From: Cannabis sativa
Lineage: Eukaryota > Streptophyta > Magnoliopsida > Rosales > Cannabaceae
Assembly: GCF_029168945.1 (NCBI RefSeq)
Contig: NC_083603.1
Coordinates: 52,524,406-52,588,405 of the forward strand
DNA: 64,000 bases
Direction of reading: 5' to 3'
The translations under genes and the position numbers were made by a program. Below, piece by piece: positions 5,779 to 52,060 of the stretch (position 1 is the stretch's first letter; each line of letters starts with the position of its first letter). A model generated the notes under the pieces. The model was given only the letters and a program-made list of their open reading frames with translations. It was not told the origin of the DNA and made no database searches.

Positions 5779-5791
5779 AACTCCCACTTGC
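5779..5791 (-). other. Element B polypurine tract
   Basis: Minus strand GCAAGTGGGAGTT directly abuts the 3' LTR. The same tract precedes the 3' LTRs of C (52048) and D (55648). Confidence 0.8.
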
Positions 5792-5807
5792 ACTAATATA
5801 AAACTAA

Positions 5808-12083: not shown

Positions 12084-12096
12084 GGCTCTGAGGCCA
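12084..12096 (-). other. Element B primer-binding site
   Basis: Minus strand TGGCCTCAGAGCC, two bases inside the 5' LTR. It fits the initiator-tRNA-Met complement TGGTATCAGAGCC except at positions 4-5 (CC for TA). C, D and F carry the same variant. Confidence 0.7.
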
Positions 12097-12098
12097 GT

Positions 12099-13978
12099 TA
12101 TTGGTTATTATTTTACCAGGATCTTAGATCTACTCACAAGTATGTTTATTAACATCCTAAATATGAACTATAAATTAAACACATATAAAGTTTAAGAAAC
12201 CTTACATTGGGTGCAGCGGAATTATAATGACTCCTTCCGTTCAGATCTCTAACCCTTGATTCCTTTCTGTAGCAGAGTATTATCAAGATCTGAACCTGGA
12301 TCTTCTTCTCTGAATCCTTGATGCTGAATCTCCTTTGCTGTTGATCTTTCTTCACAATCTTCCTCACTATGATTGAGGTATTGCTTGATGTGTGTGGGCA
12401 CTACTCTAATCACTAAGAGAGGTTCGAAATTTTGAGGAAGAAAAGAGAGAGAGAGTGGCGGCTAGAGAAGAGAGTGGAGGCTCGTGTTTTTCGATTCGTA
12501 AAGTGTAATTTTGCTGAAGCCTTCACTATCTATTTATAGCATTCCTTCTAGGGTTTGATTTGAATTATATGGCATTAAAATAATGAAAAAATCATTTAAA
12601 AAAGATAACATAAGTGGCCGGCCCTAGGCTTGGTGGACTGGGCCTTGATTTTTGCAATTTTGCAATTTTACCACTTTTGTATCTGATTTTCTGAAAAATG
12701 CCAATTTCCTAATTCAATCATTTAAATGCCAATTCTAACTATTTAATAACTATAAATAATTATTAAATAATATTGTCATTTATCATATTTATTAATTGCA
12801 CCATACAAAGTATCACAATTAACAAATATGCCCCTGTTAACTCTTTCTTTACAATTTCGTCCTTACTTAGTGAAAATTTCACAAATAGACATAGTCTAAT
12901 TTGTGAATTATAATTGATTAATCAAAACCAATTACATGAGTCTTACAAGCAATATTATCTCAACTAGTGGGGGGACCATGGGTCTATATAACCGAGCTTC
13001 CAATAAGTAGATCAAGAATTTAGTACTAAAATTCACTAACTTATTAATTCTTCGTTGAATCCACGCATAGAACTTAGAATTGCACTCTCGCATATAGAAT
13101 GCTCTATATGTTCCACCATATAGACACATCATTAGTTATCCATTGTTATAATCCTAATTTGATCAATGATCCTCTATATGAATGATCTACATAGTAAAGG
13201 GATTAAATTACCGTAACACCCTACCATGTATTTTATCCTTAAAACACTTGACCCCGTATAAATGATATTTCAGCTTATGTGAAATGAGATCTCCACCATT
13301 TATTTTCGTTTGGCCAAGCTCGAAGGAAATCATCCTTTGCTTACTATTTGCCAGATAGAAGCTATAGATTCCATGTTTATGCTAGCGCTCCCACTCAATT
13401 GCACTACCGTGTTCCCAAAATGTACGTATCACCCTGACCTAAAAGTAGGCTTAACTAACAAATCAAAGAACACGAATAGCCTTTCAAGATTGAGCCTAAT
13501 CATAACGGGATTAAGATCATTTGATCTAGGATCAACTTGGCGATATTGACTTGAATAGATTTTACGGTAACTTTTATTAAATCTAAATCAAAGTTCAATA
13601 TCGGTCCCTTCCAATGCATACTCCATGCATCCAACCTGAGCTTTACTTTAACCAATGTTCTGGAAAGAACATAGTATTTCTCCAAATACAAGTAAACTCT
13701 TGTTGTAGATTATCATATCAGTAAAACCCTGTGTCTGATAAATCTAGGAAACTTTATTCACATAGTCATGTTTACTTTCCAATGTGATGACAGCACAATA
13801 AACATGATCAAGTATGTGAAAAGGGTTTAAGATGAATTTATAAATCAATTAGACAAGCAATTGATAAAGTGAGCCAAAACATACACAAATGAATGAAAAA
13901 TACTTCTGTTTCTTTATTGATGTTGAATAAAATAGATTACATTGAAACGGAGTTTTATTTAGGGCATAAAACCTAACA
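12099..13978 (-). repeat. Element B 5' LTR
   Basis: 1880 bp. Matches the 3' LTR except for a 12-bp deletion, a terminal TG-to-TA change on the plus strand and several CAG/CTG-context differences (12484-12500, 13088, 13352). Confidence 0.95.
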
Positions 13979-17623: not shown

Positions 17624-20600
17624 TCTAGCGTCTCGAGGTTATATTGAAAACATTTAACTTTTGTAAGACCAACAATGGAGATCGAATATCTTAATAATAA
17701 TCAAGCTCATTATTTAAAGTGAGTTGTATTTTCTTTGATTCTCTTTATTTAATTTATTTATTTTAAATATATATTTATTTAAAATTTCCAATTTAGAATG
17801 AAAAATTCTAAATATAAATTTTAATTTAATATTTATAAATTTTACTTAGATGGATATAAAAATAACATGAATTATTTCCATCTTAGGAATAATTTCCAAT
17901 AAATATTTAGAAAAATATTCAATTTAAGTTGTTACAAAATTAATATAAATTAATTTACAACTCAAATTTAATTTTCTATAAATATATATTGCATTTCGAA
18001 ATTAAAGTATTTAAGAATACAATTTTTGAAAATGCATGTTAAAATAAAAAATTAATCCTGGAAAAATTATTCTAATTTAATGTTGGCCCAAAATTAATTT
18101 ACAACAAAAAATATAATTTTCCTATTTAATTAAATATATAAGAAAAATTTCAAATATTTATGTATGATGATAAAAATCAACTTAAATATTAATTTTCTAT
18201 TTAATTAAATACACTAGAAAAATACTTCAAGCAAAAATATCATCTATCTAGATTTTCCTTTGACTAATTAATTAAATTTCTAATAATATACTTTAATTCA
18301 ATTTATTTTAAATTAATCAATAAATGAAAAAATCATTGATTTAAGTTGATCCAAGAATTAATTAAAATAAATAATTAATTTACAACTTAATCTATTTTTC
18401 AATATAAAATTCGAAATTCTAGCATTTAAGAAGTGCAATTTCGAAAATTGATTAATAAAATAAAGAAAAAACATATTTTGAAAATTATTTAAATTTAGTT
18501 GAAAAAATAAATTTCAACTAAAAATAATTTTCTATTTAATTAAATGTCATGAAAAAAGAAATATTTAAGTATGATGATAAAAATCAACTTAGATATTCAA
18601 TTTTCAAATTAATTAAATGTATTAAATTCAAGAAATAAATAATTAAGTGTAGAGAAGGCTTAATTATTAGTCTCTAGTTTAATACTAGGAAAAATATACT
18701 TAAAATAAATTGTACCAAAATTAATTATATAAATAATTAATTTCACAATGTATAATATTTTCCTATTTAATATTAGAAATAATAAGTAGTCTAGAAATAA
18801 CTATCTAGAAAATATCTTATTTGACTAAGTATCTTTTACACAAAATTTAAAAAAAAAAATATCTAATTTAAGTTGTATTAGAATAAATCTAGAACTTAAA
18901 TATTTTTCAAATTTAAATTTAATTAAATATCAAAAATTAAGTTGTAACCACTTAATTTGAAAATATTCCATTTTAAGTTAATATTTGAAAAGATATTAAC
19001 TTAAAAAATATCTAAAGAATCTTAATAACCAATGCCTAAAATTCCTCAACTTAATTTTGAAATTTGAAATTCAAAAGATATTCAGATTTAAGTTGGTTTG
19101 TTGTAGATAACTAAATATCAACTTAAATAAGAATATTTAATGAAAAATTTAAATTAAGTTCCAGAAAGAATCTAGATGGTTATAATTCTATATTTAATTA
19201 AATACAAGAAAATACATATAGTTTAGCTTAGAATAAAAAATTCTTTAAACTATAATTTTCTTAAATTAATTTCAAAATAAATGAAATTAATTATGTTGCT
19301 AATCAATTTTATTAGGTTAAACTAGTGTAATTAACCTAGTACAGTTGTTCAGATCAGGCAAATGGGCCTTCACAATTGGGGTGGTTCATGTGAGGGGGTG
19401 CTGGGTTCAGTATGTCGTACCCACTTCTATGGCTCCCAACTCTCACACAAGGCCCAAAAGAGAGGAATTTAACCTTAATAAGAACAACTGTTATTAATTG
19501 AATAAGCCTAATAACTAAATGGGCCTAAATAAATTCTATCAAGAACTATGATAATTTATTTTAGCAACAACAACCTATATGTATCTATAATCAAATTAAA
19601 CACATAGGCTCACACAGGCACACTTTGGATGGGTCCTATCATGTTGCTAGGTCATACACAGATGAAAGAAGATTGTAAATATACCTGTTACAAATTATTA
19701 ACTTGACCAAGGGAGCCATCAGATCATTAGATCTGGCAAAAAGTAACCATGGCTATTTGCAATCAAGTAATAATAGGTTTTGAAAACTTACAAATAAGCT
19801 AAAACACATACTCCTGCAACAAGGTTAGTTGGATAGTTGGATGTAGGATTTATTTAATTTTAAATTAAATATTTAATTTCGAAAATAATTAATTAAATAA
19901 TAATAAAAAAATCGAAAATTTAAAAAAATTTTGAAAAATTCGAAATTTTTAAAAAATTTAAATTTAAAATTAAACCTACAATTTTTGAAAAATTAGGTTT
20001 CAACCAACCTAAATATCATTTCAAAAATTTGCTAACTACTTTTAAATTTTAAATGTTATTTTATAAATAAAATTAAATAAAAAATTAGAAAAGATAAATA
20101 AATATCTTTTTCAAATTTTAAATGTAATTTAAATAAATAAAATAACAAAATTTAAAAAATTAGCAAAATATCTTATATCATTTAAAAATTACATGATTAT
20201 AAATATCTTATTTTTAAATTTAAAATAAGATAAGATATAATCAAATTTTAAAATAAGATAGATTTTTAAGCAAGAAGATAGATACTAATTCTATTCAAAT
20301 TCAAATTACACTAATATCTTGAATTAAATTTAAAAAATATTAAATTAATTCAAAAAGATAATTAGAATTGAATTAGGAATAGTAATAGTATAAATACAAA
20401 ACTATACCAAAAATCGGAAGTTAATTCCATGAAAAAGCATGAAAAATCGAAGAAAAACGAAAAAATTGTGAACTGTACGGACAGATTTGCGATCGCAGGA
20501 AAATTTCATCACAGCCCCGATTTTTTCAAATCTTCAAAAATTCATAACTAATTCAAATAAAATCGAAATTGAGTTCTGTAAAAGGCTAACTTGCTTAATT

Positions 20601-20776
20601 TTTCCCATACTATCCAATAAAAATAATTCCAGAAACAAAATCGCAATTATTTTTCACGAAAATTTACAAACATCAATCAATCATCAAATAACACTCAATA
20701 CAACATGATACCATCCAAAGAACATACAAACAATCGTTTTAAAGTCCAAATTTCTTGCAAGTAAATCAATTACCAT
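17624..20776 (-). other. Element F untranslated leader (partial)
   Basis: AT-rich and non-coding, collinear with the leader of element D read in reverse. Contains the shared GC-rich island at about 19355-19465. Confidence 0.8.
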
Positions 20777-20789
20777 GGCTCTGAGGCCA
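20777..20789 (-). other. Element F primer-binding site
   Basis: Minus strand TGGCCTCAGAGCC, two bases from the LTR; same variant as in B, C and D. Confidence 0.7.
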
Positions 20790-20791
20790 GT

Positions 20792-22685
20792 TGTTGGAAA
20801 TTATTTTACCAGGATCTTAGATCTACTCACAAGTATGTTGATTAACACCCTAAATATGAACTTTCTAAAACGATGAAATAAACACATATAAAGTTTAGGA
20901 AACCTTACATTGGGTGCAGCGGAATAATATGACTCCTTGCGTTCAGATATCTAGCCCTTGATTCCTTTCTGTAGCAGAGCATTATCAATATCTGAACTTG
21001 GATCTCTTTCTCTGAATCTTTGATGCTGAAACTCCTTTGCTGAAGATCTTTCTTCACGATCTTCCTCACTATGATTGAGGTATTGCTTGATGTGTGTGGG
21101 CACTACTGTAATCACTAAGGATTTCGAAATATTGAGGAAGAAGAGAGGGAGTGTTCAGCCAAATAGGGAGAGAGACGGCTCAATTTTTCTGATTCAGAAA
21201 GTGTCAGAAGAAAAGTCTTATTTTCCTGAAGCCTTCACTATCTATTTATAACATTCCACTAGGGTTAGATTTGAATTATATGGCATTAAAATAATGAAAA
21301 AATCAACTTAAAATACACACAATAGGTGGCCGGCCATACACTTAGTGGATTGGGCCTTGCTTTTTGCAATTTTACAATTTTAACACCTTTTGTATCTGAT
21401 TTTCTCAAAAATGTCAATTTCCTAATTCAACCATTTAAATGCCAATTCTAACTATTTAATAACTATAAATAATTATTAAATAATATTGTCATTTATCATA
21501 TTTATTAATTGAACCATACAAAGTATCATAATTAACAAATATGCCCCTATAAACTCTTTCTTTACAATTTCGCCCTTACTTAGTGAAAAATTCACAAATA
21601 GACATAGTCTAATTTGAGAATTATAATTGATTAATCAAAACCAATTACATGAGTCTTACAAGCAATATTATCTCAACTAGTGGGGGGACCATGGGTCTAT
21701 ATAACCGAGCTTCCAATAAGTAGATCAAGAATTTAGGACTAAAATTCACTAACTTATTAATTCTTCGTTGAATCCACGCATAGAACTTAGAATTGCACTC
21801 TCAGTATATAGAATGCTCTATATGTTCCACCATATAGACACATCATTAGTTATCCATTGTTATAATCCTAATTTGATCAATGATCCTCTATATGAATGAT
21901 CTACACAGTAAAGGGATTAAATTACCGTAACACCCTACTATGTATTTTATCCTTAAAACACTTGACCCCGTGTAAATGATATTTCAGCTTATGTGAAATG
22001 AGATCTCCACCATTTATTTTCGTTTGGTCAAGCTCGAAGGAGATCATCCTTTGCTTACTATTCGCCATATAGAAGCTATAGATTCCATGTTTATGCTAGC
22101 GCTCCCACTCAATTGCACTACCGTGTTCCCAAAAGGTACGTATCACCCTGACCTAAAAGTAGGCTTAACTAACAATTCAAGGAACACGAATAGCCTTTCA
22201 AGATTGAGCCTAATCATAACAGGATTAAGATCATTTGATCTAGGATCAACTAGGCGATATTGACTTGAATAGATTTTACGGTAAGTTTAATTAAATCTAA
22301 GTCAAAGTTCAATATCGGTCCCTTCCGATGCATACTCCATGCATCCCAACCTGAGCTTTACTTTAACCAATGTTCTGGAAAGAACATAGTATTTCTCCAA
22401 ATACAAGTAAACTCTTGTTGTAGATTATCATATCAGTAAAACCCTGTGTCTGATAAATCTAGGAAACTTTATTCACATAGTCATGTTTACTTTCCAATGT
22501 GATGACAGCACAATAAACATGATCAAGTATGTGAAAAGGGTTTAAGATGAATTTATACATTATGTACATATAATCATGAAATAAATCATGTGAACCATGG
22601 AACATTAAATGTTATTTCTGATCTATATTAATAAGTAAATCTGATTATATTGAAATGAGTTTTATTTAGGGCATAAAACCCAACA
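20792..22685 (-). repeat. Element F 5' LTR
   Basis: 1894 bp, with D-type U3 at 22555-22660. Its partner LTR is outside the window. Confidence 0.9.
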
Positions 22686-23315: not shown

Positions 23316-23320
23316 ATATT
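23316..23320. repeat. Target-site duplication ATATT of element H (left)
   Basis: ATATT abuts the LTR start TGTTATAAAA at 23321 and recurs at 28729-28733. Confidence 0.9.
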
Positions 23321-23563
23321 TGTTATAAAATAATATAAAGTAGATGAGAAGAAAGAAGAAGAAGATGAAGAGAGAAAGAGAAAGTGAATGAGAATTTCTG
23401 AGTTGTTTATTCCAATGGGGTGAACCCCTATTTATACAAATACAAGAGTGAGATATTAAGAAACTAAGAAAAAGGGAAACTAAGGAAAAGAGGAATGTTG
23501 ATTACAATTCATGGTAATAAATAAAAGATTTGGACATCCACATAATTATTAATATTTATAACA
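23321..23563 (-). repeat. Element H 3' LTR
   Basis: 243 bp with TG/CA ends; no difference seen from 28486-28728 by eye. Contains a purine-rich GAAGAAAGAAG stretch. Confidence 0.93.
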
Positions 23564-23577
23564 CTCCCCCTTGGATG
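23564..23577 (-). other. Element H polypurine tract
   Basis: Minus strand CATCCAAGGGGGAG adjoining the 3' LTR. Confidence 0.75.
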
Positions 23578-23586
23578 TCCATAATA

Positions 23587-23960
23587 ACTGTCTTATTAAA
23601 AATCTTGCTGAAAACTTGATCAAAGGAAAAAGAGTATAGTGTAAACTAACTCCCCCTCATTTAGGCATTTGTGGAGATCTTTTAATCGACGAATTTCGAT
23701 CTTGTCTGCCGTCTTCTCAAATGTTGATGTTGGTAATAACTTTGTGAATAAGTTTGTAAGATTGACACCTGATTGAATATGTTGAACACCAATATGCATT
23801 TTCTTGAAGCGTATAAAGAAGAATTTCATGAAATGTGTTCTAACTCTATCTCCTTCAATGTACCTCCTTTTAGTTGAACGATGCAAGCAGTATTATCCAT
23901 AGAGAATTGCTTGGGTTGATGCTTCTTTATTGAGTGCAATCCATATGTTTCACGAATATG
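23587..23960 (-). pseudogene. Copia RNase H C-terminal remnant in element H
   Basis: Minus-strand fragment with SGVNLTNLFTKLLPTSTFEK followed by IEIRRLKDLHKC, the usual end of plant Copia RNase H (family pattern: NLAD-FTK-LP-TFEK then a G-RRL motif). Just upstream, in another frame, is a trace of the DNTACI box around 23885-23910. Frameshifted and too short for function. The first usable start is at about 23886. It shows that H derives from an autonomous Copia ancestor. Confidence 0.75.
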
Positions 23961-24032
23961 CTATGCCAATGATCTCACTCACACACATTCTCTACTTGCT
24001 TCATAAAATGCAAGTATGTTAACATGATTTAT

Positions 24033-24215
24033 AGTTGCCTCGTTAAAAACCTTGCCAGAAAAACCCAGTGGGACAAAATCTGAGCTAGGGAAAAGAGTAT
24101 AATATATATTTCATATTCATAATTATTTGCAAGTTGCCTCGTTAAAAACCTTGTCAGGAAAACCCATTGGGACAAAACCTGAACTAAGGGAAAAAGAGTG
24201 CAACATGAATATGTC
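24033..24215 (-). repeat. Two imperfect direct copies of a ~72-bp unit in element H
   Basis: Units near 24033-24103 and 24132-24208 both contain GTTGCCTCGTTAAAAACCTT, then GGAAAACCCA or GAAAAACCCA, GGGACAAAA and an AAGAGT end. They lie directly upstream (plus-strand sense) of the hairpin region. Function unknown. Confidence 0.75.
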
Positions 24216-27200
24216 TCCCCCTCATGCACATATGATCCATAATTCTTTTGGTGATAATATATCTCATAAGATTATTGTTATCACTTTTAAAATATCACCA
24301 TATATAATCTTTGATCATATATTTTCTATAACTCTTCCAGAGTATGTATGGACTTCTAAATTATAGATGAGGGGTTCGTGGAACATTAATATTTATCCAA
24401 CTAATTGTATCATTCATGTGTATATACAATCTTGTTCATACTAAAATTTAACATTTTAAGTAGATATGAACATAACACATTAATGATAATATAAATTTCA
24501 TTTGTGACAATGATGGTACTCCAATACCATATATTTGTTCCATCTTGTTGTATGATCTTAATTTTCATATCAAATGATCATATATTTATAATTCTTAATA
24601 CATATGAAGTACTTCAGGACTTCAATACTAATGAACAAACTTTATACATTTAATATTTCTCGATATACAAAAGAAATAAAAGTTTGTTCTTCAATTAATC
24701 AAAAACTCTTCAAGAGTCTATCACAACGTATAATTTACGTATTTATACTGCATAGACAACCATACGTATTTTTTCAAACAATAATTTACTTACATGTCTT
24801 TATTTCATACAAAGATCTTTGTCATATAGTGCGCGCGACTTTGAATTTATATCACTTAAGACATGTATTAAATTCTTCTAGAATTTTTAGATAAGGCTTA
24901 ATTCAAATTCTCACTATATTAGGAGCTCCAAATAAATAACCTTTTGTTGCAACATTTATGTGACGCTTATAAATCCTCATAAAATATATTCCAGGCTATA
25001 ATCAAATCATGATTATATTTTCTCAATATTTAAGCCTTACTTCAATCAATCTCATGTCTATGCAAGCTTTGTACAACAATTCATTATGTACAAATACATA
25101 TATGCAAATTTCTCATTAGAAATATTTATTTGCACACCCTACAGGTCTTACTTCACTTTATGTGAGTAAATTTGCCTGGATTGCGTCATAATATTTTGGC
25201 CAAAAATCAAAATGTAAGTCGATGATTCTCGACAAATCTAATACCATGATCCTTGCTATCTCATGTTAGTTTATTGCATATGCAAACATTCAATATTTAT
25301 TGTCGACAAAAATTTCAATAAATGATAATTTCCTCCCATATTGACATAACTTATAGAGATCTCTTTAAATTACATATTTTTCAAATATGTTTATCATTTA
25401 TAGGTACCTATAACGAATCACTTCAGGGATTCAATTATGATGAAATGTGTTATGTCTAACTTCTCTTGGGAGTCTTTTCGAGTACCGTTTTCATCACGGT
25501 TATCATTTTAATACTTTATAACATTAAGGTATCTCCATGAGTACCTCTAGATTTAACAATTTCAGGGCAAATCAAATGAACATTTACTAATAATTTCTAT
25601 ATTGTTCATTTACGCTTCAGGCGTTTTCAACTCATTCTAACTCAACTTTGAATAATATTGATTTGCAGTTGGTATATGTCATTTTGAACTATATTGTTCT
25701 TATATACTTTGTGCAAGGATCATTTTTCAAAAATTATCATCGATCCCAACTGCTTCTCTCCCCCTGATCGAGAGAATTTTTAAAAATTGTGATATCTAAT
25801 AATATTAATACACCTGTAGGGATTTCAATATATCACAATGAATCAATATCTATTTAAACTCATATATATTATATGACATTGAACTTCAGGTTCAATAACT
25901 TCAGTTTCAAGTTCAATACTTATGAACTTAATTCATTTCTAAGAATGAGTCATACGTGTATAATTAGAAATACATAAATTTACACATTTTGTAAATACAT
26001 GATTATATAATCTTATCACATCGATAAGAAACTATGCAATAAAAATCTAACAATGGCTCAAGATTGTTAAGAAAATATAATTTAAATATTTTCTATGTGG
26101 AAATATATGCACATTCTTCTTTTGAGCCTTATAAATAACAATGAGAAGAATCTTCTGGTTCTTCAACAAAATTTAGTCAAATTCTTTGACAATTTATTGC
26201 ATATGATTGATCATGTCAAAATAATTCAATTCATGAACTTCAGGTTCACTATAATTTGTATTTCAATGAAACTTTCACAAGGTAATGTAAAATCACTACA
26301 ACATATAAGTAATCATAAAAAGTTTCATTTTTATATACACGAATAATATAATTATATTATTCTCCAAAACATATACACTCTTCAGGAGTCACTATTATGT
26401 TTATCAAACTTTATATTTCTTTAGGAATCACTATCATCAATTCAATGATGTGTATAATTTAAAAGATACATGACAACTTCATCATGTTATTGTAATGGTC
26501 AAATAGATATAACCATAATATATCATTCATTTTTCCTGGTATCTTTTTAACAAGTCGTCTAATTTATTAATAGACTATTCATCAGTCTAATTATCATGAC
26601 TTGATATATTATATATTTAAATGTACAACCAGTACATATAATAAGTTATTTCTTATCACTTTTATAACTAGATAAAAATTATACATCTAGGTACATACAA
26701 ATATATTTTACTACTCCAAGTAGCAATTGTATGTAAGACTTCTTTAGGAAGCTTTTCAAATAATCATTTTGTGATTCTTTATCACTTTGATTATATTGGA
26801 TCACTAACAAATGTTAGTAAGTTATATATTCACTTCCGGGAATATGCAAACTGAATTATATAGTAACTATATACATACATATCCTGTACTAACAATAGTT
26901 TGAAACTATTGATTTCAAGAAATAATAAAATATGTATATATTAATTTACTTTTGGCATTGCCAATATATGTGAAATCTATATTCTTTGAAATAGAATTTC
27001 ATGTCTATTCATTCTCTTTAGGGAATGATATTTAAATATTCTAAATGTACAATAAATTTGTACAATTCACATTCTATTCAATAATCAAGTATACTTTTAT
27101 CTTGATTATAAGTATGTCCGTACTACAGGTACGCGACCACTATTATTCAATTCCACACATGATATATAAATTTCATGCACTTTGATTATGTGTGGTATCT

Positions 27201-28190
27201 CATCTTTTAGTTGTTTCCACTTTTTTTGGAAATATTTGATTAGTAAATAATGTCATTGATTATTTAAAATCATTACATTCACTTCGGGGAATGACGTTGA
27301 ACAAGTAGAACATTATTATAAATTTCTTAAAAATTTATTACTTGTTCATCCATAAAAAATATAAGAAATTATTCAACAATTTCTTTTACGATATTTCAAA
27401 GAATATATGAATGCAATTTTTGCATAGTCTCCAAGATGTATGCAAAATTTAATCTTTAATATATGTCAGATTCAATAATTTCCAACATTGCAAGTAATAA
27501 CAATGTATAATAACATGACTAATACGATGAATCTTTAAAAGTAGTTGACTTCAATTCGTATCATTCTCTGCAGGGAATGATGAACAATAAATACATGCCT
27601 CATGTATTTAAATAACATTAGTCATGCTCATTGTTATTCTTATACTTTGATGTTTCAATGCAATTTTCTTAACATTCTTTTTTGATATTCAAAACCCACT
27701 ATAAAATTGCATCAATAATAATCATTTTTAATGATTCTTTAGTTGTATTCACATAAATACAATCATTTTTTTTTTTGACAAATATAAAACATTTACTTCA
27801 GGAAATGTTTGTCAAAATCTATATCGATATTAAATTACTTTTCATTGTCCTCAAAGAATACGAGAACATATATATAAATATGTATTCATCTCTTTCATTA
27901 TATATCCATCAACTATATAATGAATATTACGTTTGCATAATCTTCAGGATAAATGCAAGATTTTATTGAGGACGCATAATCATCAGGATATATGCAATAT
28001 TTTATCGAGGATGCATAATCTTCGGGATGTATACAATTTTTTTATCGATGATGCATAATCTTCAGGATATATGCAATATTTTATCGATGATGCATAATCT
28101 TTAGGATATATGCAATATTTTATCGATAATACATAATCTTCTGGATATATGTATAATTTATATAGATTTTCTCTATCATATCATAGGCAC
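24216..28190 (-). repeat. Hairpin-rich AT region of element H
   Basis: About 4 kb with no coding signal but many short perfect inverted repeats. Plus-strand examples (arm, loop, arm): 24605-24624 TGAAGT/ACTTCAGG/ACTTCA; 25415-25432 GAATC/ACTTCAGG/GATTC; 25612-25624 ACGC/TTCAG/GCGT; 25878-25896 ATTGAAC/TTCAG/GTTCAAT; 26234-26248 TGAAC/TTCAG/GTTCA; 26377-26389 ACTC/TTCAG/GAGT; 26826-26845 arms ATATTC and GAATAT; 27009-27028 arms TCATTC and GAATGA; 27119-27133 CGTAC/TACAG/GTACG; 27276-27293 arms CATTC and GAATG; 27560-27581 arms ATCATTC and GAATGAT; 27787-27810 arms AAACATTT and AAATGTTT. Arms vary while the loop core CTTCAGG is conserved. Further inverted repeats with other loops occur at 26803, 26893, 27299-27347, 27588-27610 and 27658-27712. 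Confidence 0.85.
27935..28163 (-). repeat. 39-bp tandem repeat, six copies
   Basis: Units start at 27935, 27974, 28013, 28053, 28092 and 28131 (periods 39, 39, 40, 39, 39; the last partial). Each begins GCATAATCTTCAGGATATAT or a close variant. In most units the pair GCATA/TATGC encloses ATC-TTCAG-GAT, i.e. the same hairpin as in the region to the left. There is no spacer diversity, so this is not a CRISPR array. Confidence 0.92.
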
Positions 28191-28470
28191 ACACATATTG
28201 TAAATATTATGAATGATAAGTATATAATATGTATATATATATGAATTAATAATAAATATATAAAAATATATACATACATATATAATATATAGATATATAT
28301 AGATAAAAAAAAAAAAAGAAAACAAAGGATTCTTGAAATTGTTTCAGTCAGATGAGTATATATATAAATATATATTTAGTGTATCGTGACTTTGAAACAA
28401 TTCAAGAACTTTAACAAAATACTTATATTGAGTCTTAGGCAGAGATTCATGCTTGAAGCTTGGGCAGAGA

Positions 28471-28485
28471 CTCGTGCTGATAACG
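28471..28485 (-). other. Element H candidate primer-binding site
   Basis: Minus strand CGTTATCAGCACGAG, directly abutting the 5' LTR. It does not match initiator tRNA-Met; the primer tRNA is not identified. Confidence 0.55.
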
Positions 28486-28728
28486 TGTTATAAAATAATA
28501 TAAAGTAGATGAGAAGAAAGAAGAAGAAGATGAAGAGAGAAAGAGAAAGTGAATGAGAATTTCTGAGTTGTTTATTCCAATGGGGTGAACCCCTATTTAT
28601 ACAAATACAAGAGTGAGATATTAAGAAACTAAGAAAAAGGGAAACTAAGGAAAAGAGGAATGTTGATTACAATTCATGGTAATAAATAAAAGATTTGGAC
28701 ATCCACATAATTATTAATATTTATAACA
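28486..28728 (-). repeat. Element H 5' LTR
   Basis: 243 bp, same sequence as the left LTR. Followed by ATATT (28729-28733), the second target-site copy. Confidence 0.93.
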
Positions 28729-28733
28729 ATATT

Positions 28734-32301: not shown

Positions 32302-33162
32302 TTAAACAATGCAAACTCCCAAAGACTTTCTGAGGGAGTCAAAGCGACTTGCATCTAGGGCCTTTGTGAAAATATCAGCTAATTGTTTTTCAGTATCAAC
32401 ATATTCTAATTGCAATGATTTATTTTCAACAAGTTCCCTGATAAAGTGATGTCTTATATCAATGTGCTTTGTTCTAGAATGTTGAACAGGATTTTTGGAA
32501 ATATTTATGGAACTAGTATTATCACAAAAAATAGTCAAAACACCTAATTCAAACCCATAATCAATCAACATTTGTTTCAACCACAATAGTTGAGTACAAC
32601 AACTGCCAGCAACTATGTACTCAGCTTCGGCAGTAGACAAGGAGATGGAATTCTGTTTCTTGCTATGCCAAGATACTAGATTATTCCCAAGAAAGAAACA
32701 CCCTCCACTTGTGCTCTTTCGATCATCAGCATTTCCTGCCCAATCTGCATCACTAAAACAAGCAAGATTTGAATTAGTATGTTTCGAGTACCAAATTCCA
32801 TAATCAGGAGTGCTATTAACATATCTAATAATCCTTTTTACAGGTGATACATGAGATTCCATAGGATTACTTTGATATCTAGCACACACTCCCACACTGT
32901 AACAGATATCAGGACGACTAGCAGTTAAATACAAAAGACTTCCAATCATGCTACGATAGAGTGTAGTGTCTACCTTTACTCCATTCTCATCTTTTGTTAA
33001 TTTCAGTGTGGTGCTCATTGGAGTACTTACCTGCTTAGCCGATTCAAGGCCGAATTTCTTGACAAGGTTCTTAGCATACTTACTTTGAGATACAAATGTA
33101 CCTCCTTCCATTTGTCTCACTTGAAGACCTAGAAAGAAATTAAGCTCACCAACCATGCTCAT
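32302..33162 (-). CDS. Element E pol C-terminus: end of RT and RNase H
   Basis: A 286-codon frame following directly on the stop codon at 33163-33165. It starts SMVGELNFFLGLQV, which in other Copia elements continues without interruption from the RT. RNase H motifs: CFSDADWAG, SLSTAEAEYI, FCDNTSSIN, SKNPVQHSRTKHIDIRHHF and EKQLADIFTKALD, giving the catalytic D-E-D set. It is part of one polyprotein with 33166-35612 and would not be translated separately. Minor oddity: none of the catalytic residues is lost. Confidence 0.9.
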   Translation of the reverse strand: MSMVGELNFFLGLQVRQMEGGTFVSQSKYAKNLVKKFGLESAKQVSTPMSTTLKLTKDENGVKVDTTLYRSMIGSLLYLTASRPDICYSVGVCARYQSNPMESHVSPVKRIIRYVNSTPDYGIWYSKHTNSNLACFSDADWAGNADDRKSTSGGCFFLGNNLVSWHSKKQNSISLSTAEAEYIVAGSCCTQLLWLKQMLIDYGFELGVLTIFCDNTSSINISKNPVQHSRTKHIDIRHHFIRELVENKSLQLEYVDTEKQLADIFTKALDASRFDSLRKSLGVCIV

Positions 33163-35612
33163 TTAAAATTCACTTTTCATTTGATCAACAAATACCTGCA
33201 CTTCATGGTTAGATGTAAAACCAAAAACTATATCATCAACATAAATTTGAGCAATGATAAAATCAGATTTTATATGCTTGATGAAAAGAGTTTTATCCAC
33301 ACTACCTCTGTGATAGTCATGAGAAAGTAAAAATTGAGTCAACCTTTCATACCAAGCTCGAGGAGCTTGTTTCAGACCATACAAAGCTTTTTCAAGCTTG
33401 TATACATGGTCTGGAAATTGAGGATCTTCGAATCCTTTTGGTTGCTCAACATAAACTTCCTCATTCAAAATACCATTTAGGAAGGCAGATTTCACATCCA
33501 TTTGAAACAATTTAATATTCAAAATACAAGCAATACACAAAAGTAAACGAATTGATTCTAATCTTGCAACAAGAGCAAAAGTTTCATTAAAATCAATACC
33601 TTCTACCTGTGTGTACCCTTGTGCCACCAACCGATCCTTGTTTCTCACAATTGTACCGAACTCATCACTTTTATTTTTAAATAACCACTTTGTTCCAATT
33701 ACATTTATACCTTTTGGTCTTCGGACCAAAATCCATACCTTTTTGCGAACAAATTGGTTGAGTTCCTCTTGCATTGCATTGAGCCATTCCTCAAAGGTCA
33801 TGGCTTCCTTCACATTTTTCGGTTCATATTGAGAAACAAAACAAAGAAAGCTGATTAAATTAACATACCTTCTGCGAGTTACCATGCTTTCTTCAGGATT
33901 TCCAAGAATGAGATCTTTTGGATGATTCAATTTGACTCTGGTGCTTGGTTCTTTCTGAATAGAATCAGTGATGATGTTTGGATGAGTCAAGATAGACGGC
34001 TCTGGTTCTCCAGTTTCAGTTGCAGTAGCAGATTCGTCATTTGCAGCATCAGAAATGGGTTCTGCTGCATCGGGATACGCACTGGCACATGCAGGAGGAG
34101 CATCCATGAGACTATCTATCTTGGCTTCTGTGGAAAACTCTGAAAAATCTCTAAAATCATCAACAACCACATTAGCTGATTCCAAAACAGTTTGAGTTCT
34201 CATGTTATAAACACGATAAGCTCTACTGTTTAAGGAATATCCAATAAACACACCAACATCACTTTTAGCATCAAATTTACCAATATGCTCACGATCTTTA
34301 TAGACATAACACACACATCCAAAAACATGAAAATGACTTACATTGGGGCGCTTACCTTTCCAGATTTCATAAGATGTTTTTGAGGTACCTGGACGAATAA
34401 ACACTCTGTTTATTATGTAGCAAAATTTTGTGTTAATAGCTTCAGCCCATAAGCGCTTTGTCAACTTCTTGCTATTTAACATCACTCTTGCCATTTCCTG
34501 CAATGTTCGATTCTTCCTCTCAACAACTCCATTTTGTTGAGGAGTTTTGGGAGCTGAAAATTCATGAGTTATACCTGTAGACTTGCAAAAATCATCATAC
34601 ACAAAATTTTCAAACTCCTTACCATGATCACTTCGAATTCGAACAATTTTCCCAATATTACAACCTTTCTCAACTCTTAATCTCAGACAAAGAGTTTTAA
34701 AGGCATCAAAAGTGTCAGATTTTTCTCTTAAGAAATCTACCCAAGTAAAACGAGAGAAATCATCAACACACACAAAGATATATCGTTTACCATTCAAACT
34801 TTCAACTTGAATTGGACCCATAAGATCCATGTGCAGCAATTCCAATACTTTTGAGGTATTGATATCAGACACAGGCTTGTGAGTGATTTTTAATTGCTTC
34901 CCAAGTTGACACGGTTCACACTTACCAACACTTTCTTTACCAAGCTTGGGAAGTCCTCGGACAATACCTGCATTTGACAATTTTTTCAGGTTTTTAAAAT
35001 TAATATGCCCAAGCTTGGCATGCCACAGATCTGAGGTGTTGTTGATAGCTGAATGACAAGTAAACACAGGGGTTAGAGTGTAACAGTTATCATTGGATCG
35101 TAATCCTTGCAAGATACATTCATTGTCATCATTCAGAACATAACAATGATCACTATCAAAAGAAACAGTAAACCCTTGATCACAAATTTGACTGATGCTA
35201 AGTAAATTAGCCCTCAGTCCTTCAACTAACATCACATTTTTCAGTCTAGGTAACCCTTCAAAATTTAGAGTTCCCATACCAACAACTTTTCCAGATAGGC
35301 CATTACCAAAAGTGACTTCTCCATATTGCATAGGCCGAATGTTAGTCAAAAAGTCCTCGTCACCTGTCATATGTCTAGAGCAACCACTGTCAAAATACCA
35401 CATTTGAGATGTAGCAGTTTTATCAGAAAAACCAGCTAGACAATTCTTTTTCACCCATATTTGTTTCAAACCTTTATGTTTCTTTTGAGATTTTTCCAAA
35501 TTATCAAAATAATTTGTTTTAAACAGATTTTTCAACGTGAAACATTTATGTCTGATATGTCCTTTTCTACCACAAAAATGACAAGTGGGAACAAATCTTT
35601 TTACCTGAGATC
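33163..35612 (-). CDS. Element E pol: second gag knuckle, protease, integrase, RT; ends at a premature stop
   Basis: Open frame of about 810 codons with no ATG at its start; it continues gag after a frame change. In order: knuckle CHFCGRKGHIRHKC (about 35550-35590); protease with YFDSGCSRHMTG; pre-integrase LWHAKLGHINFKNL and CEPCQLGK; integrase core with HMDLMGPI, RSDHGKEFEN and APKTPQQNGVVERKNRT; RT with GTKWLFKNK, FQMDVKSAFLNG, LYGLKQAPRAWY and YVDDIVFGF. The frame ends with TAA at 33163-33165, in the position of a conserved Glu codon of related elements (GAA to TAA), then continues open as RNase H. One substitution therefore truncates the polyprotein. Confidence 0.92.
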
Positions 35613-37154
35613 TTACTCTTTTCGAAAATCCTGGAGATTTTGCAGCATCAGAAACTGCTCTTCTTTGCGACGGCCGTGAAAGCTATTACGGCGAGACTTT
35701 GTAGCCTCAGAGTGATTCGTTGGAACACTAGATTTTACAAACTTCGTGACTCCAGAACTTTCCATTCCATTTGAACCAAGGCCTACGAAACCTCTTTGAC
35801 CTGCATTCTGAGCTTTTTCAAAAATAGAAGATCCAGGGTTAAGCATTTGAACATTTTTCTTAAAATTTTCAAGTTCCTTCTTTAAGAGAGTGATTTTTTC
35901 ATCTTTATCACAAGAACTTGTCTCATACTCTTTTATTTTCAATTCACACATTTCAATCTGATGAGACAATTTTTTATTCAATTTATTCAACTCTCTATTT
36001 TCAGAAGCAACCTGAATCCATTTTTCGTACATGACTTTGTATGATTCAGCAAGAGACTCTTGTTCCTCTTGTTCGGTGGTATTATTCAGACATACCAATC
36101 TAGCTTTCACCTGTGAATCACACAACACATTAGACATAACAGAGGTTAGGGCAACATTTTTAGAATTATCTTCATCACTTTCGGTTTCATCATCACTCCA
36201 AGTGATATTGAAACTTTTCTTATTCTTTTTCAAAGTGTTTGCAGACTTAGCTTGAATATGCCCAAAACCTTCACATTCCCTGCACTGAATTCCCTTTTTG
36301 TTAGAAACAGATGGTTTAATAAAAGTATTACCTTTTGAACCTTTTGAAATATTCTTTTTATTTCCCATCTTTTTCATATATTTCTGAAAATTCTTAGTTA
36401 ATACAGCAATCTCATCATCATATTCACTATCAAAATTTTCATTATCAGCAACTTTCAAAGCAATACTTTTACCTTTATCAGCAATGGATTTGGGTTTGTC
36501 CTTTTGTTTAATCTGTTGATTTAATTCAAAAGTACGTAAGGAACCCATCAATTCTTCCACCTTCATAGTGCTAAAATCTTTAGCTTCCTCCATTGCCAAA
36601 AGTTTAGTATCAAACCTTTCTGGAAGTACTCTAACAATTTTTCTTACAAGAACAGAATCATCAAGCTTTTCTCCAAGAGCAAAATATTCATTAGCAATGT
36701 CAGATAATTTTTCATAAAATTCAGTTAAAGTTTCATTATCAGACATTCTAAGCTCATCAAATTTAGTTTGAAGCATGATAAATCTAGATCTTTTCACATC
36801 AGAAGTTCCTTCAAACTGAGTTTGAAGGATCTCCGAAGCTTCCTTAGCAGAAACACAAGATGATATAAGTTTAATGTAACCCTCACCTACACCATTAAAG
36901 ATAGCATGCAAGGCTTTGCTATTGTAGGCAAAAAGTTTATCATCTTCAATAGACCATTCCAGTTCAGATTTTATAGTAGTATTACCTGAAGAATCTGTCT
37001 CAACTGGAAGAGACCAACCTGAAAGAACCATTCTCCAAGCTTTCTCATCTTGAGATTTGGTGAAGGCCCTCATTCTAACTTTCCAATAAGGATAGTTAGA
37101 GTCATTAAGCAACGGTGGTCTAGAAATAGAACTTCCTTCTGTAAAAAATGACAT
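35613..37154 (-). CDS. Element E gag
   Basis: 513 codons from a good ATG at 37154 (MSFFTEGSSISRPPLL). The gag capsid region is recognised by YPYWKVRMRAF, then FEGTSDVKRSRFIMLQTKFD and LTEFYEKLSDIANEYFALGE. A knuckle CRECEGFGHIQAKS follows at about codon 292, in which the fourth zinc ligand, normally Cys, is Ser. The C-terminal half is charged and heptad-rich (NRELNKLNKKLSHQIEMCE), predicting a coiled coil, as in Sirevirus gags. The frame ends at 35613 through a one-base shift near 35660; the correct frame leads into pol. Confidence 0.9.
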   Translation of the reverse strand: MSFFTEGSSISRPPLLNDSNYPYWKVRMRAFTKSQDEKAWRMVLSGWSLPVETDSSGNTTIKSELEWSIEDDKLFAYNSKALHAIFNGVGEGYIKLISSCVSAKEASEILQTQFEGTSDVKRSRFIMLQTKFDELRMSDNETLTEFYEKLSDIANEYFALGEKLDDSVLVRKIVRVLPERFDTKLLAMEEAKDFSTMKVEELMGSLRTFELNQQIKQKDKPKSIADKGKSIALKVADNENFDSEYDDEIAVLTKNFQKYMKKMGNKKNISKGSKGNTFIKPSVSNKKGIQCRECEGFGHIQAKSANTLKKNKKSFNITWSDDETESDEDNSKNVALTSVMSNVLCDSQVKARLVCLNNTTEQEEQESLAESYKVMYEKWIQVASENRELNKLNKKLSHQIEMCELKIKEYETSSCDKDEKITLLKKELENFKKNVQMLNPGSSIFEKAQNAGQRGFVGLGSNGMESSGVTKFVKSSVPTNHSEATKSRRNSFHGRRKEEQFLMLQNLQDFRKE

Positions 37155-37370: not shown

Positions 37371-39253
37371 TGTTGGGTTTTATGCCCTAAATAAAACTCA
37401 TTTCAATATAATCAGATTTACTTATTAATATAGATCAGAAATAACATTTAATGTTGCATGGTTCACATGATTTATTTCATGATTATATGTACATAATGTA
37501 TAAATTCATCTGAAACCCTTTTCACATACTTGATCCTGTTTATTGTGCCGTCAACACATTGGAAAGTAAACATGACTATGTGAATAAAGTTTCCTAGATT
37601 TATCAGACACAGGGTTTTACTGATATGATAATCTACAACAGAGTTTACTTGTATTTGGAGAAATACTATGTTCTTTCCAGAACATTGGTTAAAGTAAAGC
37701 TCAGGTTGGATGCATGGAGTATGCATCGGAAGGGACCGATATTGAACTTTGACTTAGATTTATTAAACTTACCGTAATATCTATTCAAGTCAATATCGCC
37801 TAAGTTGATCCTAGATCAAATGATCTTAATCCTGATATGATTAGGCTCAATCTTGAAAGGCTATTCGTGTTCTTTGATTTGTTAGTTAAGCCTACTTTTA
37901 GGTCAGGGTGATACGTACATTTTGGGAACACGGTAGTGCAATTGAGTGGGAGCGCTAGCATAAACATGGAATCTATAGCTTCTATCTGGCAAATAGTAAG
38001 CAAAGGATGATCTCCTTCGAGCTTGACCAAACGAACATAAATGGTGGAGTACTCATTTCACATAAGCTGAAATATCATTTATACGGGGTCAAGTGTTTTA
38101 AGGAATAAATACATTGTAGGGTGTAACGGTAATTTAATCCCTTTACAGTGTAGATCATTCATATAGAGGATCATTGATCACATTAGGATTATAACAATGG
38201 ATAACTAATGATGTGTCTATATGGTGGAACATATAGAGCATTCTATATACTGAGAGTGCAATTCTAAGTTCTATGCGTGGATTCAACGAAGAATTAATAA
38301 GTTAGTGAATTTTAGTGCTAAATTCTTGATCTACTTATTGGAAGCTCGGTTATATAGACCCATGGTCCCCCCACTAGTTGAGATAATATTGCTTGTAAGA
38401 CTCATGTAATTGGTTTTGATTAATCAATTATAATTCACGAATTAGACTATGTCTATTTGTGAAATTTTCACTAAGTAAGGGCGAAATTGTAAAGAAAGAG
38501 TATATAGGGGCATATTTGTTAATTATGATACTTTGTATGGTTCAATTAATAAATATGATAAATGACAATATTATTTAATAATTATTTATAGTTATTAAAT
38601 AGTTAGAATTGGCATTTAAATGATTGAATTAGGAAATTGGCATTTTTGAGAAAATCAGATACAAAAAGTGGTAAAATTGCAAAATTGTAAAAATAAGGCC
38701 CAGTCCACCTAGCCTAGGGCCGGCCACTTATGTCATCTTTTTTAAATGATTTTTTCATTATTTTAATGCCATATAATTCAAATCAAGCCCTAGAGGAATG
38801 CTATAAATAGATAGTGAAGGCTTCAGAAAAATTACACACTTTCTGAATCAGAAAAACCTGAGCCTCCACTCTCTTCTCTAGCCGCCACTCTCTCTCTCTT
38901 TTCTTCCTCAATATTTCGAACCTCTCTTAGTGATTAGAGTAGTGCCCACACACATCAAGTGATACCTCAATCATAGTGAGGAAGATCGTGAAGAAAGATC
39001 ATCAGCAAAGGAGATTCAACATCAAAGATTCAGAGAAAGAGATCCAGGTTCAGATATTGATAATGCTCTGCTACAGAAAGGAATCAAGGGCTAGATATCT
39101 GAACGGAAGGAGTCATATTATTCCGCTGCACCCAATGTAAGGTTTCCTAAACTTTATATGTGTTTATTTCATCGTTTTAGAAAGTTCTTATTTAGGATGT
39201 TAATAAACATACTTGTGAGTAGATCTAAGATCCTGGTAAAATAAATTCCAACA
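37371..39253 (+). repeat. Element D 5' LTR
   Basis: Begins TGTTGGGTTTTATGCCC and ends CCAACA. The first ~130 bp of U3 differ from B/C; the rest is nearly the same. Confidence 0.95.
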
Positions 39254-39255
39254 AC

Positions 39256-39268
39256 TGGCCTCAGAGCC
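39256..39268 (+). other. Element D primer-binding site
   Basis: TGGCCTCAGAGCC, two bases from the LTR; shared variant of the initiator-tRNA-Met site. Confidence 0.7.
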
Positions 39269-42200
39269 AAGGTAATTGATTTACTTGCAAGAAATTTGGA
39301 CTTTAAAACGATTGTTTGTATGCTCTTTGGATGGTATCATGTTGTATTGAGTGTTATTTGATGATTGATTGATGTTTGTGAAATTTTCGTGAAAAATAAT
39401 TGTGATTTCGTTTCTGGAATTATTTTTATTGGATAGTATGGAAAAAATTAAGCAAGTTAGCCTTTTACAGAACTCAATTTGGATTTTATTTGAATTAGTT
39501 ATGATTTTTTGAAGATTTGACAAAATCGGAAATTTGTCTTGATAGTTTCGCACGATCATGCAGAACTGTCCGTACAGTTTCGGATTTTTTCCTTTTTTCT
39601 TCAATTTTTCATACTTTTTCATGGAATTAACTTCCAATTTTTTGTATGGTTTTGTATATATACTATTACTATTCCTAATTCAATTCTAATTATCATTTTG
39701 AATTAATTTAATTTTTTTTAAATTAATTCAAGATATTAGTGTAATTTGAATTCGAATAGAATTAGTATTTATCTTTTTGCTTAAAAATCTATCTTATTTT
39801 AAAATTTGATTATATCTTATCTTATTTTAAATTTAAAAATAAGATATTTATAATTATGTAATTTTTAAATGATATAAGATATTTTGCTAATTTTTTTAAA
39901 TTTTGTTATTTTATTTATTTAAATTAAATTTAAAATTTGAAAAAGATATTTATTTATCTTTTCTAATTTTTTATTTAATTTTTATTTATAAAATAACATT
40001 TAAAATTTAAAAGTAGTTAGCAAATTTTTTTTGAAATGATATTTAGGTTGGTTGAAACCTAATTTTTCAAAAATTGTAGGTTTAATTTTAAATTTTAATT
40101 TTTTTTAAAAAAAAAAAAAAAAAAAAATTTCGAATTTTTCAAATTTTTTTTAAATTTTTCGAAAAATTATTTTTTTTATTTAATTAATTATTTTCGAAAT
40201 TAAATATTTAATTTAAAATTAAATAAATCCTACATCCAACTATCCAACTAACCTTGTTGCAGGAGTATGTGTTTTAGCTTATGTGTAAGTTTTTAAAACC
40301 TATTATTACTTGATTGCAAATAGCCATGGTTAACTTTTTGCCAGATCTAATGATCTGATGGCTCCCTTGGTCAAGTTAATAATTTGTAACAGGTAAATTT
40401 TACAATCTTCTTTCATCTGTGTATGACCTAGCAACATGATAGGACCCATCCAAAGTGTGCTTGTGTGAGCCTATGTGTTTAATTTTATTATAGATGCATA
40501 TAGGTTAATGTTGCTAAATAAAATGTCATAGTCATTGATAGATTTTATTTAGGCCCATTTAGTTTTGGGCTTATTCAATTAATAACAATTGTTCTTATTA
40601 AGGTTAAATTCCTCTCTTTTGGGCCTTGTGTGAGAGTTGGGAGCAATAGAAGTGGGTACGACATACTGAACCCAGCACCCCCTCACACAAACCACCCCAA
40701 TTGTGAAGGCCCATTTGCACGATTTGAATGACGTACTAGGTTAATTAAACTAGTTTAACCTAATAAAATTGATTAGCAACATAATTAATTTCATTTATTT
40801 TGAAATTAATTTAAGAAAAATATAGTTTAAGGAATTTTATATTCTAAGCTAAACTATATGTATTTTCTTGTATTTAATTAAATATAGAATTATAACCATC
40901 TAGATTCTTTACGGAACTTAATTTAAATTTTTCATTAAATATTCCTATTTAAGTTGATATTTAGTTATCTTCAACTAACCAACTTAAATCTGAATATCTT
41001 TTGAATTCAAAATTTCAAAATTAAGTTGAGGAATTTTAGGCATTGGTTATTAAGATTCTTTAGATATTTTTTTAAGTTAATATCTTTTCAAATATTAACT
41101 TAAAATGGAATATTTTCAAATTAAGTGGTTACAACTTAATTTTTGATATTTAATTAAATTTAAATTTGAAAATATTTAAGTTCTAGATTTTTCTAGTACA
41201 ACTTAAATTAGATATTTTTTCAAATTTTGTGGAAAAGATACTTAGTCAAATAAGATATTTTCTAGATAGTTATATATAGACTACTTATTATTTCTAATAT
41301 TAAATAGGAAAATATTATAAATTGTGAAATTAATTATTTATTAATTAATTTTGGTACAATTTATTTTAAATATATTTTTTCCTAGTATTAAACTAGAGAT
41401 TAATAATTAAGCCTTCTCTACACTTAATTATTTATTTCTTGAATTTAATACATTTAATTAATTTGAAAATTAAATATCTAAGTTGATTTTTATCATCATA
41501 CTTAAATATTTCTTTTTCATGACATTTAATTAAATAGAAAATTATTTTTAGTTGAAATTTATTTTTTTCAACTAAATTTAAATAATTTTCAAAATATATT
41601 TTTTCTTTATTTTATTAATCAATTTTCGAAATTGTATTTCTTAAATGCTAGAATTTCGAATTTTATCTTGAAAAATAGATTAAGTTGTAAATTAATTATT
41701 TTAATTAATTCTTGGATCAACTTAAATCAATGATTTTTTCATTTATTGATTAATTTAAAATAAATTGAATTAAAGTATATTATTAGAAATAGAATTAATT
41801 AGTCAAAGGAAAATCTAGATAGGTGATATTTTTGCTTGAAGTATTTTTCTAGTGTATTTAATTAAATAGAAAATTAATATTTAAGTTGATTTTCATCATC
41901 ATACTTAAATATTTGTAATTTTTCTTATATATTTAATTAAATAGGAAAATTATATTTTTTGTTGTAAATTAATTTTATTAATTAATTTTGGGCCAACATT
42001 AAATTAGAATAATTTTTCCAGGATTTATTTTTTATTTTAATATGCATTTTTCGAAAATTGTATTCTTATATACTTTAATTTTTCGAAATGCAATATATAT
42101 TTATAGAAAATTAAATTTGAGTTGTAAATTAATTTAAATTAATTTTGTAACAACTTAAATATTTTTTTCTAAATATTTATTGGAAATTATTACTAAGATG

Positions 42201-45742: not shown

Positions 45743-45744
45743 AC

Positions 45745-45757
45745 TGGCCTCAGAGCC
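45745..45757 (+). other. Element C primer-binding site
   Basis: TGGCCTCAGAGCC, two bases after the LTR. Confidence 0.7.
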
Positions 45758-52020: not shown

Positions 52021-52047
52021 ATATGTACTAATTAGTTTTATATTAGT

Positions 52048-52060
52048 GCAAGTGGGAGTT
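52048..52060 (+). other. Element C polypurine tract
   Basis: GCAAGTGGGAGTT directly before the 3' LTR. Confidence 0.8.

Follow-up and report, generated by a model that had tools for sequence, protein, structure and literature searches.

A 64,000-bp stretch of the Cannabis sativa genome (contig NC_083603.1, positions 52,524,406 to 52,588,405 of the forward strand; hereafter the window) carries, at 23321-28728 on the minus strand, a 5,408-bp long terminal repeat (LTR) element that we designate H. Its two 243-bp LTRs are identical, and a 5-bp target duplication, AATAT, flanks it at 23316-23320 and 28729-28733. Judged by its sequence, H is a young non-autonomous Ty1/copia element of the Bianca type, and transcription from the minus strand is predicted from the primer site, the polypurine tract and an RNase H remnant. 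Its non-coding interior contains numerous hairpins that share one loop rule on complementary arms, stand in sense orientation and recur in many genomic copies; the same hairpin occurs in gag and early pol of coding relatives. The parts of H are as follows, with positions counted along the window.

23321-28728, minus strand: element H, non-autonomous Ty1/copia (Bianca-type), delimited by LTR identity and the AATAT duplication
28486-28728, minus strand: 5' LTR of H, 100% identical to the 3' LTR
28471-28485, minus strand: primer binding site CGTTATCAGCACGAG, half tRNA-Ile type, from sequence reading and the lineage rule given in the available part of PMC6317226
28191-28470, minus strand: leader of H, with a long hairpin and an AT-rich stretch, from folding
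24216-28190, minus strand: non-coding interior with local inverted repeats and dispersed hairpins of the common loop rule (C-hairpins)
24033-24199, minus strand: presumed copia 3' end motif, two direct copies (GTCCCA-TGGGTTTT-AAGGTTTTTAACGAGGCA)
23620-23886, minus strand: remnant of a copia RNase H C-terminus
23564-23572, minus strand: polypurine tract AAGGGGGAG, adjoining the 3' LTR, from sequence reading
23321-23563, minus strand: 3' LTR of H, 100% identical to the 5' LTR

The primer site was matched to what we take to be the letters of half a tRNA-Ile, and the name of the copia 3' end motif at 24033-24199 is likewise our assumption. So read, the primer site fits the rule that, among plant copia elements, a half tRNA-Ile primer is found only in the Bianca lineage (PMC6317226; here and below, statements on published work refer to the available portions of the papers cited). 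No open reading frame (ORF) of more than 100 codons is present in the array, and only the RNase H tail remains, with neither gag nor pol. A Pfam search with this tail and with the sequences P0001 and P0002 yielded no match, and a protein search with the frame of the tandem array found nothing. Direct comparison with the copia ORF of the window gave weak matches (E 0.17 for the RNase H tail, E 0.052 for P0001); kinship with copia is therefore drawn from P0005, which is 57% identical to the RNase H tail of H and matches the copia ORF of the window with an E-value of 4e-12. Rfam covariance models gave no match at E ≤ 1 over 23321-28728, and a ribozyme or other Rfam RNA in H was rejected on this search.

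In H RNA, 15 dispersed hairpins (two of them weak) and six tandem units fit the rule stem-C[C-N-R-N-A]G-(W)-stem, the loop consensus being C[CNRNA]G followed by an optional A/U. An initial annotation, made from the sequence, had described a conserved loop core, two loop classes and arms that differ completely from one hairpin to the next. The motif is real: with no motif preselected, TTCAG has the longest flanking stems, ranking first of 222 5-mers (z 6.2), and CCNRNAGW occupies eight of the 13 perfect hairpins with an 8-nucleotide loop. The loop is, however, a rule rather than a single sequence. Both classes exist, the pentaloop C[CNRNA]G being the octaloop without the extra A/U. Arms do differ between hairpins, but not throughout, as those at 27016, 27282 and 27568 share CATTC/GAATG. 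Orientation is one-sided, CTTCAGG occurring nine times on the plus strand of H and not once on the minus strand. There are 21 non-tandem CCNRN(A/T)G sites, 15 within the hairpins listed here and six outside.

27934-28151, minus strand: tandem array, 39-bp unit, six hairpins TGCATA-U-AUC[CUGAA]GAU-UAUGCA
27787-27810, minus strand: C-hairpin, loop CCTGAAGT, 8 bp, outer stem 27773-27782/27808-27817
27560-27581, minus strand: C-hairpin, loop CCTGCAGA, 7 bp, in a branched domain closed by 27496-27505/27629-27638
27276-27293, minus strand: C-hairpin, loop CCCGAAGT, 5 bp
27119-27133, minus strand: C-hairpin, pentaloop CTGTA, 5 bp
27009-27028, minus strand: C-hairpin, loop CCTAAAGA, 6 bp
26826-26845, minus strand: C-hairpin, loop CCGGAAGT, 6 bp
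26739-26751, minus strand: weak C-hairpin, pentaloop CTAAA, 4 bp
26415-26428, minus strand: weak C-hairpin, loop CCTAAAGA, 3 bp
26377-26389, minus strand: C-hairpin, pentaloop CTGAA, 4 bp
26234-26248, minus strand: C-hairpin, pentaloop CTGAA, 5 bp
26145-26164, minus strand: C-hairpin, loop CCAGAAGA, 6 bp
25878-25896, minus strand: C-hairpin, pentaloop CTGAA, 7 bp
25612-25624, minus strand: C-hairpin, pentaloop CTGAA, 4 bp
25415-25432, minus strand: C-hairpin, loop CCTGAAGT, 5 bp
24605-24624, minus strand: C-hairpin, loop CCTGAAGT, 6 bp
26949, 25814, 25666, 25463, 25139 and 24245: motif sites outside the hairpins of this list

That pairing, and not the sequence of the stem, is kept in these hairpins had been proposed in the initial annotation and is supported by two analyses. 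When flanks were re-paired among the 21 non-tandem sites, the observed summed stem of 81 compared with 28.5 ± 5.7 and was reached in none of 20,000 trials (93 observed versus 37.7 for all 27 sites, tandem units included). An alignment of nine octaloop hairpins, eight of which had been picked as perfect hairpins, contains 17 double-changed paired cells versus 7.4 ± 1.9, a value reached in 0 of 500 shuffles; slid partners gave 3-7 such cells. Two of the five measures applied to this alignment were no better than shuffles, namely the number of double-change pairs (316/500) and of further pair types (91/500). Within the tandem array four pairs vary, of which one is compensatory, two are G-U in the element RNA and one is broken in one unit; these are too few changes for covariation in the array alone, and 93 of 500 shuffles reach it. 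Paralogy of the hairpin flanks was rejected, a z above 3 being no commoner among them (2 of 261 pairs) than for random sites (7 of 273), and apparent pairwise alignments were set aside on this ground.

Sixteen hairpins were folded: every dispersed one except 26419 and 26742 (13 of 15), plus three tandem units out of six. All 16 form the expected stem in the minimum-energy fold, at -3.6 to -8.9 kcal/mol, with z-scores against shuffles from -0.03 (26152) to -3.93; the stem of hairpin 27282 is lost in the centroid fold.

Local inverted repeats are in excess in the interior of H. Perfect hairpins (arm ≥ 7, loop 3-9) at 24216-28190 number 25, versus 5.3 ± 2.2 in 100 dinucleotide shuffles (maximum 11), which bears out the hairpin excess supposed earlier. 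Inverted repeats with an arm of at least 8, at least two G/C and a span of at most 150 number 36, versus 8.1 in shuffled sequence (4.4-fold) and 10.8 expected from local shuffles. This count is the highest among 16 tiles of the window; since the other 15 tiles also hold 12-24 each, 1.8- to 3.7-fold above shuffles, H represents the upper end of a trend seen across the window. At 24216-27925, with an arm of at least 9, 18 inverted repeats have a span below 150 (about 2.6 expected) and 18 a span of 150-1200 (18.5 expected, no excess). With the motif sites masked the local excess persists, 19 being left versus 4.6 ± 2.3. Perfect arms in the array reach at most 11 bp. Six of the 15 C-hairpins lie within enclosing stems, and 38% of the sequence is enclosed; a preference of C-hairpins for enclosed positions was rejected. 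At 27496-27638, two nested 10-bp stems around several hairpins give a cloverleaf-like domain.

Coding relatives of H were found in the same genome. One of them, L097, has LTRs that are 99.1% alike, the primer-site motif of H and no detectable match to the array; compared with H, its LTR is about 88% identical over 193 of 243 bases and its tail 77.6% over 495 aligned positions. Its open frames comprise 195, 218 and 962 codons. The first matches zf-CCHC at 20.1 bits, slightly below the curated cut-off of 20.8, and the second gag_pre-integrs; a CCHC zinc knuckle seems to be present in the relatives' Gag. Six further relatives, L133-L138, were analyzed as 2.6-kb pieces, L133-L136 having been picked because they combine the primer site with an intact gag frame of 368 codons. 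Stop-to-stop frames run at 489-1592 and from 1707 in L133, and at 485-1588 and, in another frame, from 1578 in L134; the second open frame of L135 and of L136 starts later. L137 and L138 are the two diverged relatives, at 52-54% identity in gag protein.

A model, R1, was built from nine H hairpins only, and its E-values are rough; its best background match across bacterial and viral loci totalling 553,787 bases is 17.5 bits, and its best match in the window outside H 14.5 bits. R1 finds the hairpin twice in L097, both times in sense orientation, at 25.0 bits in the first frame (gag) and at 19.9 bits in the second (early pol). The gag hairpin is present in sense orientation in all seven relatives (25.0 bits in five, 20.6 in L137 and L138) and the early-pol hairpin in all five close relatives (19.9 bits in four; the 17.3 bits in L134 are no better than the best background match). 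There is no antisense match of R1 in the seven relatives. By exact motif, sites with a stem of at least 4 make up 5 of 12 sense and 0 of 8 antisense sites in L097, and 13 of 24 sense and 0 of 16 antisense sites in the other six pooled. In L113 and L114, pieces of the diverged pair, which may be one family, the loop CCAGAAGT is intact together with six pairs out of seven (GGCACTT/AAATGCC), the inner pair being T-A instead of C-G. The other 18 gag pieces include several older, broken copies in which a loop letter or at least one pair has been lost. Pieces of three relatives show no clear general excess of inverted repeats (8, 9 and 8 versus about 5). No relative was confirmed in viral and bacterial collections, where 26 matches lacked copia context and a further check confirmed none of 19; the 19-mer of LTR end and primer site had no match there, and a 15-mer had 38, which were not inspected singly.

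The genomic abundance of H was assessed in one genome, a 770.7-Mb assembly of 18 contigs. The exact 19-mer occurs 639 times, its reversed control not at all. A 1-kb query from the array matched at 98-100% identity in all 40 full-length places scored out of 988 candidates, one of them H itself, and the array frame P0006, taken from another copy, matched all 150 places scored out of 1,451 candidates. When 20 primer sites on contig 1 were sampled by eye, away from the places listed for the array queries, the array was present in 18, each with 2,462 or more of its 3,975 bases; the remaining two were L096, with 183 array bases, and L097, with none. A gag match lies within about 1.5 kb of at least six of the first 100 primer sites listed, a lower bound since 150 of 313 gag candidates were scored. 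Protein-less H appears to outnumber its coding relatives.

Variation was examined by mapping 38 copies to H, over 3,806 bases on average and at 3.4% divergence. Four base pairs have changed on both sides in the same copy, and three stay paired: 27631/27503 (five copies), 25666/25567 and 25449/25350 (one each); 24914/24829 is unpaired. Double-changed cells number 8 versus 0-3 in slid controls. The compensatory arm changes anticipated among other H copies are thus seen, for three of four double changes, in longer stems, but not in the loop-motif hairpins. In the C-stems, variants present in four or more copies are absent versus 8.5 expected from circular shifts (P 0.0017); with stems defined on H or on the union, two each were found versus 10.0 and 9.0 expected (P 0.0033 and 0.0091). 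Rarer variants, those in a single copy and those in two to three, show no depletion compared with elsewhere. Over the 15 hairpins, shared loop variants number 4 at C0, 6 at C1, 4 at N2, 8 at R3, 1 at N4, 0 at A5 and 2 at G6, and the six R3 variants in at least three copies are all exchanges between G and A. Decay through CHG methylation could yield G>A at R3, and equally C>T at C1; C>T changes at C1 occur in one, two or three copies each, and none is shared by four or more.

The hairpins may be multiplied recognition signals, probably for packaging, that are bound by a partner's Gag, a reading to which we assign a probability of roughly 0.45. Taken together, the loop rule, the changing stems, the sense orientation and the sharing with relatives are the trace expected of a loop-binding protein. 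Of the three mechanisms offered in the initial annotation, an array for packaging or protein binding is strengthened most, by the presence of the same hairpin in relatives that code for gag. In such a mechanism H would be a protein-less parasite of Bianca-type copia elements, its coding region replaced by about 4 kb of local stem structures with some twenty hairpins. The loop would be the binding site of a protein required by H and its relatives alike, most probably the Gag of the latter, which would allow H RNA to be packaged in trans. Several hairpins would provide several binding sites per RNA and hence an advantage in competition; the stem would only present the loop and be free to change while paired. 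Coding relatives carry the hairpin only a few times, in gag and pol, and H would have multiplied it. More tentatively, H may be a super-packaging parasite, its coding region replaced by multiplied recognition hairpins that compete for the relatives' Gag. Such competition may explain the apparent numerical excess of H over its coding relatives. To our knowledge, little is known about the choice of RNA for packaging in plant copia elements. Gag-RNA specificity in Ty1 of yeast has been called poorly understood (PMC8396678). A hairpin with a stated loop rule, present in a protein-less element and in coding relatives, makes an RNA-protein interaction directly testable in vitro. H is also close in size to Salsa-1, an active Bianca element of tomato (5,500 bp; PMC11044480), and the array may additionally hold the RNA length in range.

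Several observations weigh against Gag recognition as the function of the hairpins. One H hairpin, the near-palindromic one at 27560-27581, scores in antisense orientation (16.6 bits), and in L137 and L138 the exact rule with a stem of at least 4 finds 0 of 5 sense sites, the hairpin being scored only by R1. The gag hairpin codes for the peptide PFPEVNA, so its conservation can partly be protein constraint, and the five close relatives are alike and hence not independent. Among the 38 copies, no double change falls in C-hairpin stems, all four lying in longer stems, and single changes in C-stems comprise 27 broken and 22 G-U cells of 2,772; support for selection on these stems is only moderate. 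For the longer stems, a depletion of variants that was strong at first failed for low-frequency variants (31 versus 39.9, P 0.086; 42 versus 43.1 for H-defined stems) and was dropped as evidence. Transitions that keep pairing in the element RNA are not favoured in stems (21:19 versus 105:129), and interrupted stems show no bias of G-U over A-C (9 versus 8, 10 versus 8, 6 versus 2, 3 versus 3 and 16 versus 9), so that a wobble-strand bias was rejected. Loop sites of C-hairpins vary more than others (0.262 versus 0.108 per site for variants in at least two copies): C1 varies in six of 15 hairpins, each time in two to three copies, and R3 shows two G>T changes, in two copies each. The total fold energy of H (z -6.8 for the minus and -17.2 for the plus strand) is no better than that of three other tiles (-3.5 to -16.7) and was likewise dropped as evidence.

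Among other explanations, the nearest keeps functional RNA recognition sites and changes the partner, to a host RNA-binding protein acting in export, stability or localisation, or to reverse transcriptase. It is the less probable version, though a serious one: a loop rule on complementary, differing stems fits it equally, and the hairpins are not confined to the region of the 5' end, being present in gag and pol, but they were found in this family only, with at most 14.5 bits elsewhere in the window, where other LTR elements are present. A mutational by-product, in which template switching by reverse transcriptase and repair perfect imperfect palindromes without selection, is doubtful. It accords with inverted repeats that are nearly perfect and strictly local (< 150 nucleotides), with wobble pairs lacking strand bias, with the 1.8- to 3.7-fold excess in the 15 other tiles and with C-stems free of double changes among copies; it predicts neither one loop rule on unrelated stems, nor sense orientation, nor the same hairpin in coding relatives, nor the rarity of C-stem variants shared by at least four copies. 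Template switching alone, one of the origins proposed initially, thus leaves the shared loop rule unexplained.

Relics of gag would be another source, fragments coding for PFPEVNA having been duplicated into the array and then drifted. CATTC/GAATG is indeed common to three array hairpins and gag; paralogy of the sequences flanking the hairpins, however, does not exceed chance, and arms that drift would lose their complementarity, which makes this origin improbable. Least probable of all, the array might feed or titrate small RNAs that silence the family. A small RNA reported in ice plant, mcr-miR6, is in print as directed against the same LTR/primer-site junction (PMC4977306), but it matches the primer site and not the array, whose longest perfect arm is 11 bp and whose single hairpins reach only -3.6 to -8.9 kcal/mol. 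Recognition by the relatives' Gag accordingly remains the reading we favour.

Among the known systems close to H are large retrotransposon derivatives (LARDs), which have LTRs, a large non-coding internal domain, an assumed dependence on the proteins of autonomous elements and a reported conserved RNA structure (PMC7215508). H similarly has LTRs with a target duplication, a primer site, a polypurine tract and a large internal domain without gag or pol; as to conserved structure of the interior, the C-hairpins are supported, the longer stems are not robust and the total energy is ordinary. Unlike LARDs, for which the available text mentions no hairpin array of one loop rule, H also keeps an RNase H tail. 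Autonomous Bianca members have two ORFs with a gap (PMC6317226); the primer site of H fits their half tRNA-Ile rule on the tRNA letters assumed above, but H has neither gag nor pol, and the available part of that paper does not mention hairpins. Dispersed stem-loops with a shared loop motif bind the core protein in hepatitis B virus (PMC7612645), and dispersed packaging signals are described for small RNA viruses such as STNV (PMC3593212). H resembles these in its several stem-loops with a common loop motif and variable stems. As far as described in those passages, however, the viral signals lie inside coding genomes and come with binding data, whereas H multiplies predicted sites in a protein-less element. 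Sireviruses, which are copia elements, contain numerous palindromic boxes outside their coding parts (PMC2829016), but there one palindrome per element is repeated, in the LTRs and near env and mostly with a CGG-CCG core, whereas the arms of H vary. The literature searched, which mostly excludes subscription papers and was available in part, describes no loop-conserved hairpin array in a plant LTR element.

Further observations concern the ends of H and its surroundings. The LTR end and primer site (28471-28490) match mcr-miR6 over 18 bases in reverse complement. This match resembles what we take to be a miR845-type guard. In the leader, 28328-28409 folds into a long hairpin around GTTCTTGAATTGTTTCA / TGAAACAATTTCAAGAATC. 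The presumed copia 3' end motif is found twice upstream of the RNase H remnant and, by eye, once downstream in diverged form; its multiple copies indicate that the 3' end of H was duplicated. Two inverted 10-kb blocks, 3887-13978 and 43851-53951, are 97.7% identical, and further related copies lie at 17662-22685 and 37371-42420; the window therefore sits in a nest of large duplications. At 296-3652 and 32302-37154 it also holds further retrotransposon sequences, a long pol frame of Ty3/gypsy type and a separate set of copia gag and pol.

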